NCBI RefSeq assembly: GCF_014078525.1
Contig: NZ_MU078696.1
Span: forward strand, 177,873 to 241,872
Origin: Nitrosopumilus sp. b3
GTDB taxonomy: Archaea; Thermoproteota; Nitrososphaeria; Nitrososphaerales; Nitrosopumilaceae
DNA length: 64,000 nucleotides
Reading direction: 5' to 3'
In this document: piece after piece, positions 50,879 through 54,179 of the stretch
Numbering within the stretch: the stretch's first letter is position 1
How the letters are laid out: each line of letters starts with the position of its first letter
The notes under the pieces: generated by a model
Databases searched by the model: none
Told to the model about the DNA's origin: nothing
Seen by the model: the letters and a program-made list of their open reading frames with translations, nothing else
Program-made: the position numbers and the translations under genes

Positions 50879-52546
50879 ATGGGACTCAATTATTATCAAA
50901 TAAAGAAAAATATTCTAAGAGCCCGAAAATTAGTGATTAAAGGGACTAATGCTGCTGGCTCTGGACATCCTGGAGGTTCTTTTTCAATGGCAGAAATTAT
51001 GGGGTGTTTATTTGGTAAATATTTGAAATTTGATCCTCAAAACCCTCAATGGGAAGATCGAGATCGTCTAGTTCTTTCTAAAGGTCATGCATCTCCGGGA
51101 TTGTTTTCAAACATGGCAGTTGCTGGATATTTCCCTGAATCTGAACTTGAAACATTGAGAAAATTTGGTAGTAAATTACAGGGTCATCCTGATCTTAAAT
51201 GTCCCGGTGTAGAATTTTGTGGTGGTTCACTGGGAACTGGATTATCTTACTCTATTGGGATTGCTCTTGCAGCAAAAATTGATTCTAAAAATCATCATGT
51301 CTACACAATTATTGGTGATGGGGAATCTGATGAGGGGCAAGTTTGGGAGGCTGCAATGACTGCTGCAAAATATAAAGTTGATAATCTTACTGCTTTTCTT
51401 GATAGGAATTTTATCCAACAAGATTCTTACACTGAAAAAATTATGCCACTTGATGAAAAATTAGAGGGTGACGATCTTTCTGAGATGTGGAAAGATGCAT
51501 CACGTTGGAAGACCGGTGATAAATGGAGATCTTTTGGTTGGAATGTTATTGAAATTGATGGTCATAGAGTTGAACAAATTAGTGCTGCAATTACAAAAGC
51601 AAATGCAACAAAAGGTGTACCTACAATGATAATCTCTAGAACAATAAAGGGTAAATCTGTTGAACACATGGAAGATAATCCTCAATGGCATGGCAAAGCT
51701 CCTGACTCTGATGTGGTTCCTATAATTAATTCTGAATTGGATTCACAATTCATGATTGCACCATCAATAATTGCAGGAGATATGACAAATTTAGAAAATG
51801 AAATTAAAAGATGTGTCTCTGGGAGGGCAGACTATATTCATCTTGATGTAATGGATGGACAATTTGTATCAACAAAAACTTTTGATCATAATAAAATCAA
51901 AGAATTAAGACCTCTTACTGTGATTCCATTTGATTCTCACTTGATGATTAACGAACCCGTAAAACACGTTCAGGATTACATTGATGCAGGTAGTGACATA
52001 ATTACAGTACATGCAGAAGTAACTGATGAATCTAGTTTTGGAGAAATTCATGATTTACTAAAACAAAATCAAGTTGGTGTGGGATTTGCAATAAATCCTG
52101 ATACTGAAATACCTGAATGGTCATACAAATTCTTACCATCACTTGATCAACTAATTGTAATGTCTGTTGTACCTGGAAAATCTGGACAAAAATACATTGA
52201 AGAAACACACTCAAAGATGACTAGAATAAATTCTATTCTCAAAGAACACCATTTCTCAGGTTATATTGAGGCTGATGGAGGCGTAAATCTAGAAAATATA
52301 GGTTCAATTTTTGCTGATGGGGCCCGTGTATTTGTTGGAGGTGGAGCAATTATCGGACAACAAGATGTAAGATCTGCAATTAGGGATTTTAGGAATGAAG
52401 TTTTAAAATCTAGACGACGTATTTTACTAGACAAAGCAAATGAGTTAGGTGGTATTGACTTGGTGAAGAAATGGATTGGTTTACATGTTGTAGGAGAAAA
52501 ACAAGATCAAATTAAAAAAATTGCACAGGAGGTAGGATATCTTTGA
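50879..52546 (+). CDS. Transketolase N-terminal half fused to ribulose-phosphate 3-epimerase
   Basis: 555 residues with two enzymes in one chain. Residues 1-~280 are the TPP-binding half of transketolase: NAAGSGHPGG near 24-33, LSKGHASPGL near 66-75, and the TPP/Mg motif GDGES (146-150) to N177. The normal transketolase-N end (WHGKAP, 270-275) is followed by a ~15-residue linker. Residues ~292-505 are a complete Rpe barrel, with H321 and D323 in HLDVMDG, H354 in SHLMI, MSVVPGKSGQ (428-437) and D466 in ADGGV. These match the metal and acid/base residues of known epimerases. About 50 further residues follow. Both ends serve the same pathway, and the next genes are transketolase C-half and transaldolase. 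Confidence 0.93.
   Translation: MGLNYYQIKKNILRARKLVIKGTNAAGSGHPGGSFSMAEIMGCLFGKYLKFDPQNPQWEDRDRLVLSKGHASPGLFSNMAVAGYFPESELETLRKFGSKLQGHPDLKCPGVEFCGGSLGTGLSYSIGIALAAKIDSKNHHVYTIIGDGESDEGQVWEAAMTAAKYKVDNLTAFLDRNFIQQDSYTEKIMPLDEKLEGDDLSEMWKDASRWKTGDKWRSFGWNVIEIDGHRVEQISAAITKANATKGVPTMIISRTIKGKSVEHMEDNPQWHGKAPDSDVVPIINSELDSQFMIAPSIIAGDMTNLENEIKRCVSGRADYIHLDVMDGQFVSTKTFDHNKIKELRPLTVIPFDSHLMINEPVKHVQDYIDAGSDIITVHAEVTDESSFGEIHDLLKQNQVGVGFAINPDTEIPEWSYKFLPSLDQLIVMSVVPGKSGQKYIEETHSKMTRINSILKEHHFSGYIEADGGVNLENIGSIFADGARVFVGGGAIIGQQDVRSAIRDFRNEVLKSRRRILLDKANELGGIDLVKKWIGLHVVGEKQDQIKKIAQEVGYL
52527..52532 (+). promoter_or_regulatory. Ribosome binding site of the transketolase C-half
   Basis: AGGAGG lies 10 bases before TTG 52543 and inside the last codons of the fusion gene. 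It favours the overlapping TTG over ATG 52558 as start. Confidence 0.7.
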
Positions 52547-53517
52547 ATGATCCTGTAATGACTGATATGCGTTCAGCATATTCCAAATCTCTTGTACAAA
52601 TTGGAAAAGAAAATCCTAATGTTGTAGTTTTAGGTGCAGATACAACTGATTCTCTCAAGACTTCTGATTTTGGTAGGGAATTTCCTGATAGGTTTTTCAA
52701 TGTTGGAATTGCTGAAGCAAATTTAGTTACAATTTCTGCAGGTCTGGCAGCTTCTGGAAAGATTTCTTTTGCAAGTACATATGCTATTTTTTTACCGGGA
52801 AGGGCAGTTGATCAAATTCGAAATAATGTTGCATACCCTTCACCTCCTAATAAAAAGGGGCTAAATGTAAAATTAGTTTCATCACATGGTGGTTTATCTG
52901 TTGGACCTGATGGAGGTTCTCATCAACAAATAGAAGATATTGCAATAATGAGAGTAATTCCAAATTTTAGAGTTTTAATTCCAGCTGATACTATTGCAGT
53001 TTCTAAATTAACTCTATTGATGGCAAAAGAATATGGTCCATTTTACATGAGGATGGCAAGATCTAAAACTCCATTAGTTCATTCAGATTCTCAAGAATTT
53101 CAAATTGGAAAAGGTATTACACTAAGAGATGGCTCTGACTGCACTATTGCAGCTTGTGGAATAACAGTCCGTATGGCCTTAGAGGCAGCTGATTCTTTAC
53201 AACAAGAAGGTATTTCGTGTAGAGTTTTAGATATGTTTTCAATTAAACCAATTGATAATGAACTTTTAGAAAAAGCTGCACGTGAAACAGGATTTATTGT
53301 AACTACTGAAGAACATAACATTTTTGGAGGAATGGGCTCTGCAGTTTCAGAATCTGTTTCTGAATCATATCCTGTCCCAATAAAGAGAATTGGTGCCCAA
53401 GATATGTTTGGCGAATCTGCACGAGACAATGAGGTTCCATTACTCTTGGAAAAACATGGAATAACATCTTTTAATATAGCAAAACAAGTCAAAGAAATTA
53501 GGAGCAAAAAACTATGA
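52543..53517 (+). CDS. Transketolase C-terminal half
   Basis: 324 residues covering the pyrimidine-binding and C-terminal domains of split transketolases. It begins MTDMRSAYSKSL (after a TTG-initiated NDPV), with FFNVGIAEANLVTISAGLAASG near 56-75 containing the catalytic Glu, then SHGGLSVGPDGGSHQQIEDIA and the C-terminal TTEEHNIFGGMGSAVSE. It completes the enzyme with the N-half fused to Rpe. Start TTG overlaps the upstream stop (TTGA), and the transaldolase start overlaps its own stop (ATGA). Confidence 0.94.
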   Translation: MNDPVMTDMRSAYSKSLVQIGKENPNVVVLGADTTDSLKTSDFGREFPDRFFNVGIAEANLVTISAGLAASGKISFASTYAIFLPGRAVDQIRNNVAYPSPPNKKGLNVKLVSSHGGLSVGPDGGSHQQIEDIAIMRVIPNFRVLIPADTIAVSKLTLLMAKEYGPFYMRMARSKTPLVHSDSQEFQIGKGITLRDGSDCTIAACGITVRMALEAADSLQQEGISCRVLDMFSIKPIDNELLEKAARETGFIVTTEEHNIFGGMGSAVSESVSESYPVPIKRIGAQDMFGESARDNEVPLLLEKHGITSFNIAKQVKEIRSKKL

Positions 53518-54179
53518 AAATTTTTCTTGACACTGCTAATCTAGAATCAATTAAAAAATTCAATGATATGGGATTGCTTGATGGAATCACAACGAATCCA
53601 TCTCTTATGTCTAAGGAAGGTGGAAATCCTAAAAATGCAATGGAAGAAATCACAAAAATTATCAAAGGTGATGTAAGTTTAGAAGTTGTAAGTACCAATC
53701 ATTCTGGAATGATTGAAGAAGGTAAACGACTTCGTGAATATGGAGATAATGTTGTGGTTAAAGTTCCTATGACTCCTGATGGACTCAAAGCCTGTAAAAC
53801 ACTTTCATCTGAAAAAATCCCTGTAAATGTTACACTGATTTTTTCTGCCAACCAAGCTTTACTTGCGGCAAAGTCTGGTGCAAAATATGTCAGTCCATTT
53901 ATTGGACGATTAGATGATGTCGGTCAGGATGGTATGAATCTAATTAAAGAAATTAAAGAAATTTTCTCAAATTATCATTTTGAAACTCAAATCCTTGTTG
54001 CAAGTGTTCGTCATCCAGTACATGTTGTAGATGCTGCAAAAATTGGAGCAGATGTAGTGACTTTACCTCCAGCTGTTCTTGATAAGATGTTACAACATCC
54101 TTTAACAAAAATTGGCTTGGATAACTTTCTTGCAGATTGGGAAAAACTAAAAGCTGGTAATCCTGATATCAACATCTAA
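53514..54179 (+). CDS. tal: Transaldolase (TalC/MipB type)
   Basis: 221 residues, the short transaldolase/fructose-6-phosphate aldolase type. MKIFLDTANLESI and GITTNPSLMSKEGG at the N-terminus, the Schiff-base lysine in VVKVPMT near 84, and YVSPFIGRLDDVGQDG near 126. It exchanges dihydroxyacetone units between sugar phosphates. With the two genes before it, it forms a complete rearranging branch for making ribose-5-phosphate and erythrose-4-phosphate. Confidence 0.95.
   Translation: MKIFLDTANLESIKKFNDMGLLDGITTNPSLMSKEGGNPKNAMEEITKIIKGDVSLEVVSTNHSGMIEEGKRLREYGDNVVVKVPMTPDGLKACKTLSSEKIPVNVTLIFSANQALLAAKSGAKYVSPFIGRLDDVGQDGMNLIKEIKEIFSNYHFETQILVASVRHPVHVVDAAKIGADVVTLPPAVLDKMLQHPLTKIGLDNFLADWEKLKAGNPDINI

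Follow-up and report, generated by a model that had tools for sequence, protein, structure and literature searches.

A fusion of the transketolase N-domain to ribulose-5-phosphate 3-epimerase (Tkt-N::Rpe) has been reported in 73 of 98 Thaumarchaeota assemblies, as cluster 341.1 of an archaeal fusion and fission survey (mSystems 2024; PMC11237513). The main text of that survey covers the fusion in two sentences and infers a functional non-oxidative pentose-phosphate pathway; it reports no experiment, and the junction, the tail, a single origin, the gene order of unfused relatives and a reverse fusion do not appear in it. A literature search for an experimental study of the fusion found none. 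The transketolase part has a solved and assayed counterpart in the split enzyme of Carboxydothermus hydrogenoformans (6yaj/6yak), an alpha2beta2 heterotetramer that lacks the ~70-residue linker joining the PP and Pyr domains in full-length transketolases (PMC7661550), and the epimerase (Rpe) part can be compared with the solved structures 2fli, 1rpx and human 3ovp.

We analyzed a 64,000-nucleotide stretch of the Nitrosopumilus sp. b3 genome (the window), in which positions 50879-52546 (+ strand) form one uninterrupted ORF of 555 codons with an ATG start; the opposite strand there is stop-rich. In its 555-residue product a transketolase N-domain precedes Rpe, as in the published Tkt-N::Rpe family, and the organism likewise belongs to the Thaumarchaeota; this is the fusion of cluster 341.1, found again in the lineage for which it was described. 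The fusion itself is thus already known, having been published in 2024 (PMC11237513), and a claim of novelty for it is not borne out. What we add is its single origin, a fixed junction, a series of gene orders leading to it, a C-terminal tail, the overlap with the following gene, and a reverse-order fusion that joins these enzymes. The locus comprises the following features:

50879..52546, + strand: fused gene TktN-Rpe-tail, 555 aa (ORF, Pfam, fused relatives)
50879..51733, + strand: transketolase N-subunit (TktN; PP/TPP-diphosphate domain), residues 1-285 (PF00456 over residues 13-284; 6yak)
51734..51754, + strand: junction, residues 286-292 (ELDSQFM), without a spacer (WHG-to-APS distance)
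51740..52402, + strand: ribulose-5-phosphate 3-epimerase barrel, residues 288-508 (PF00834; PDB alignments; Foldseek)
52403..52543, + strand: two-helix C-terminal tail, residues 509-555 (AlphaFold; no Pfam match)
52527-52533, + strand: Shine-Dalgarno-like AGGAGGT before the TktC start
52543..52546, + strand: TTGA, in which the TktC start TTG overlaps the fused-gene stop TGA
52543..53517, + strand: transketolase C-subunit (TktC; Pyr and C-terminal domains), 324 aa (PF02779, PF02780; 6yaj/6yak)
53514..54179, + strand: TalC/MipB-type transaldolase (Tal), 221 aa, starting in a 4-bp ATGA overlap (TAL_FSA; TIGR00875)

The original prediction, made from the sequence, held that one 555-residue chain combines the N-half of a split transketolase with an Rpe, and that the next two genes, with overlapping stops and starts, encode the transketolase C-half and a transaldolase. 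A Pfam search upholds both statements. Transketolase_N matches residues 13-284 of the fused protein (E 3.5e-49), and Ribul_P_3_epim matches residues 293-492 (E 1.1e-49) over profile positions 2-198 of 198, that is, as a complete domain. TktC consists of Transket_pyr and Transketolase_C domains, and the TktC and Tal genes each overlap the preceding gene by 4 bp. Residues 14-282 of the fused chain match the N chain of 6yak (E 4e-75) and TktC matches the C chain of 6yaj/6yak (E 4.5e-97), so that both are homologous nearly end to end to the chains of the C. hydrogenoformans enzyme (PMC7661550), whose N chain, however, carries no epimerase and stops where the archaeal Rpe starts. Like the alpha subunit of a split transketolase, the N-terminal part of the fused chain has the PP domain, the GDG...N motif and the active-site histidines without a Pyr domain, and the Pyr plus C-terminal partner expected of a beta chain is encoded nearby (52543-53517). 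Tal scores above the TIGR00875 cut-off; its nearest solved proteins are annotated as transaldolases (1vpx, E 1.2e-81; 3s0c, E 8.9e-76), and its match to E. coli F6P aldolase 1 (1l6w, E 1.5e-32) is far weaker.

The Rpe part matches solved epimerases (1rpx, E 1.5e-38), and H321, D323, H354 and D466, which we take from established knowledge of Rpe to be the metal and acid/base residues, align with the corresponding conserved residues of those structures. All four are identical in 35/35 fused homologs from two families, as are the TktN residues H30, H70, H103, GDG146-148, N177 and H271. The predicted Rpe barrel with intact catalytic residues is therefore complete, as judged by the full Pfam profile and these 35 sequences. 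An AlphaFold model of the fused chain (42-row alignment) reached a mean pLDDT of 80.4 and a pTM of 0.83, with blocks at pLDDT 35-50 where the TktN part is weak. A Foldseek search with this model returned 6yak for TktN (TMt 0.80) and 2fli for Rpe (TMt 0.91, rmsd about 2 A). Compared with 2fli, 1rpx and 3ovp, the archaeal Rpe thus has the same complete barrel and the same metal and acid/base residues, but differs in being fused at its N terminus, in an extended C-terminal helix followed by an extra helix, and in substitutions of the phosphate loop.

The reading frame is shared widely. The best 80 matches in named genomes, mostly of Nitrosopumilus-type archaea and including Nitrosopumilus, Nitrosarchaeum and Nitrosotenuis, are all fused single frames (80/80, one of them truncated by a contig end), and the 4-bp overlap between the fused-gene stop and the TktC start recurs in nearly all of the 80 homologous loci. 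The class-wide matches listed for the window's own family, f1, number about 150; all are free of stops, and many lie in one-contig genomes. In comparisons with six relatives, TktN gave a dN/dS of 0.02-0.08, Rpe 0.05-0.09 and the tail 0.07-0.2; each of the three parts is under purifying selection. A stop lost, or a frame shifted, through sequencing or assembly, with the two halves separate in close relatives, was the outcome named as fatal to the original prediction. Because the relatives are fused (80/80), many in single-contig genomes, and dN/dS is about 0.02-0.2, we rule this out; the constant length of the junction, described below, also speaks against it, and the chance of an artifact is negligible.

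The distance from the WHG motif of TktN to the APS motif of Rpe is a constant 24 residues in every fused member scored; only L211 dropped out, because the search for its motif misfired. In split relatives of families f2 and f3, TktN stops 21 residues after the start of WHG. The join hence sits where a standalone TktN ends, as had been proposed.

A survey of the fusion across the lineage, suggested with the original prediction, found it in two families. In the neighborhoods that we read, the genes are fused in 25/25 f1 loci and 10/10 f8 loci and are followed by TktC and then Tal. The sister families f2, f3, f9 and f10 (12 loci) have separate genes in the order TktN-Rpe-TktC, mostly abutting or with overlaps of a few bases, with Tal after TktC where the contig extends that far. 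Family f22 has Rpe near the TktN-TktC pair but outside it, and f14 has TktN and TktC adjacent with Rpe elsewhere. This gene-order series suggests that Rpe first came to lie between the transketolase halves and then fused to the first of them. The fused sequences are monophyletic in trees of the concatenation (SH-aLRT 100), TktN (97) and TktC (98). A quick Rpe tree that included f14 gave no single fused clade, whereas an Rpe tree without this long-branch family recovered one (100/97.9), and the disruption is probably a long-branch effect. The simplest reading of the trees, taken with the unchanging length of the junction, is that the fusion arose once, in an ancestor shared by f1 and f8.

Two further features of these genomes were recorded. 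Four genomes of the fused families that are 85-95% complete (G186, G221, G260 and G274) yielded no match to the fused protein, and a profile search added none; sequence missing from the assembly or a true loss would each account for this. Some f1 genomes (G132, G252, G176 and G289; loci L204-L207) carry a second, unfused TktN+TktC pair besides the fused copy; this second TktN is ~40% identical to the fused one, and no Rpe was found beside the pair.

Outside this class, the two enzymes occur in one chain in the opposite order, in two genomes (G554 and G628) of one genus from another class of the same phylum:

L233:3596-5212 (G554:C22), - strand: reverse fusion Rpe-TktN (Pfam)
L240 (G628:C3:318189-319796): reverse fusion Rpe-TktN, 83% identical to the G554 frame

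The G554 frame encodes 538 aa, with Rpe (Pfam, 8-196) preceding TktN (268-523), and TktC and then Tal lie downstream; this neighborhood was read in G554. Across the two genomes the reverse fusions are 537-538 aa long and keep the catalytic motifs of both enzymes (HIDIMD, FHWM and DGG; SGHP, QGHP and WHG). They resemble the window's gene in uniting both enzymes ahead of TktC and Tal (G554), but differ in their domain order, in a linker of ~60-70 aa and in the class that carries them. The reverse-order fusion is an independent event, and this convergence supports a functional link between TktN and Rpe. The original prediction knew of no example outside the lineage; as far as we searched, which for bacteria covered plasmids, this stands for the TktN-Rpe order and fails for the pairing as such, given the reverse-order fusion in another class. 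No fusion was found in viral contigs. Six records from bacterial plasmids cover 80% of the query, but we rejected them as fusions, since their annotations, where given, show separate tkt and rpe genes. In a Mycobacterium intracellulare plasmid that we read closely (NZ_CP012886.2, L227), rpe precedes a full-length tkt as a separate gene with a 4-bp overlap. The pair on that plasmid adjoins a phosphoribulokinase gene, a tight but unfused coupling.

After the Rpe barrel the fused chain continues into a helical tail of ~47 residues (509-555), a feature absent from the original prediction. In the AlphaFold model the last Rpe helix is prolonged (497-534) and followed by a further helix (540-552), with pLDDT mostly 89-95 and one block at 75. 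Both fused families have 42-51 residues beyond the matched barrel, versus 6-16 in unfused Rpe (28 in one case). The tail has no Pfam match at E up to 10. Aligned by hhalign, the f1 and f8 tails matched out of register with 58% probability, and their end-to-end profile score was equaled by 9/300 shuffles; one tail tryptophan is aligned in 35/35 fused homologs. Our guess is that the tail is a docking element toward TktC.

The fused chain contains the sole Rpe and the sole Transketolase_N found in the genome, and the fused copy must therefore do both jobs; RpiA is present and encoded elsewhere. The genome lacks 6-phosphogluconate dehydrogenase (6PGD), which the same search finds in 9 control genomes, and has no RuMP isomerase over the cut-off (43 bits versus 160, inside longer frames). 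With no 6PGD, a RuMP isomerase match only below cut-off and a Tal of the transaldolase type, F6P and GAP are the expected source of ribose, through transketolase and transaldolase. By the established stoichiometry of net ribose synthesis from these sugars, each transketolase step releases xylulose-5-phosphate (Xu5P), which reaches ribose-5-phosphate via Rpe, as ribulose-5-phosphate (Ru5P), and then RpiA.

We therefore favor, as likely, the reading in which the fused chain and TktC form an active, bifunctional split transketolase with one Rpe per active site, 1:1 coupling and flux toward ribose. The gene would encode the alpha subunit of an alpha2beta2-type split transketolase, with Rpe placed between the PP-domain and Pyr-domain subunits, and this chain would pair with TktC into an active transketolase bearing one epimerase per active site. 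Flux would run from F6P and GAP toward ribose in an autotroph in which neither an oxidative pentose-phosphate nor a RuMP route was found. Each turnover of transketolase would put out one Xu5P, which the attached Rpe would turn into Ru5P for RpiA. As all Xu5P made by transketolase must pass Rpe, the matching ratio would be 1:1, fixed by the fusion, which would also provide proximity for two near-equilibrium steps. In this we infer the heterotetramer assembly, both activities and the direction of flux. A stronger version, in which TktN-Rpe, the tail and TktC form a compact two-fold complex that passes Xu5P from transketolase to epimerase, and in which the pairing evolved twice because such coupling would draw ribose synthesis onward when metabolite pools are small, strikes us as unlikely.

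The fusion could instead be neutral, with overlapping operon genes losing a stop through a small deletion and the product being bifunctional with no kinetic gain beyond equal dosage. This is quite possible, if short of probable: TktN and Rpe are already adjacent or overlap by a few bases in split relatives, the junction joins nearly complete genes with a tiny net deletion, and one event explains all members. The sampled members of both fused families nevertheless include no return to separate genes, the conserved tail is confined to fused forms, and the same two enzymes were fused independently in reverse order. The channeling envisaged in the original prediction runs the other way, with Rpe making Xu5P from Ru5P and handing it to transketolase as donor. 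Xu5P is indeed the metabolite common to both enzymes, and the Rpe catalytic residues are complete, but we found no net source of Ru5P beyond pentose recycling, with 6PGD absent and RuMP isomerase below cut-off, and both transketolase steps release Xu5P in net ribose synthesis. The proposed direction is probably backwards, and we consider this alternative improbable.

The Rpe-like domain might also differ in the sugar phosphate that it accepts, or serve chiefly as structure, taking the place of the ~70-residue PP-Pyr linker that split enzymes lack (PMC7661550). In the window's family the phosphate loop reads PGKSGQ instead of the usual PGFGGQ (52172-52189, residues 432-437), and residues 330-336 of the Rpe in the window (51866-51886) are FVSTKTF, as against FVPNKTF in the majority of relatives; judging from the phosphate-loop substitutions, specificity or kinetics could differ. 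The domain also misses the cut-off of the TIGR01163 Rpe equivalog (177.1 versus 212.6 bits). It passes, however, that of the NF004076 Rpe subfamily (186.5 bits against 165), retains the metal and acid/base residues in all 35 homologs and has the Foldseek similarity to Rpe given above, and no second Rpe was found in the genome. We hold a changed or structural role to be very improbable.

Returning to the bifunctional split transketolase that we favor, the conserved fusion of two consecutive enzymes offers a natural and testable setting in which enzymes are coupled at a near-equilibrium node. From Rpe encoded elsewhere to adjacent, overlapping and finally fused genes, the series provides, along with the convergent reverse-order fusion, a clean example of the passage from operon to fusion. 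Ammonia-oxidizing archaea, which rank with the most abundant cells on Earth, appear to make their ribose without the oxidative pentose-phosphate pathway.
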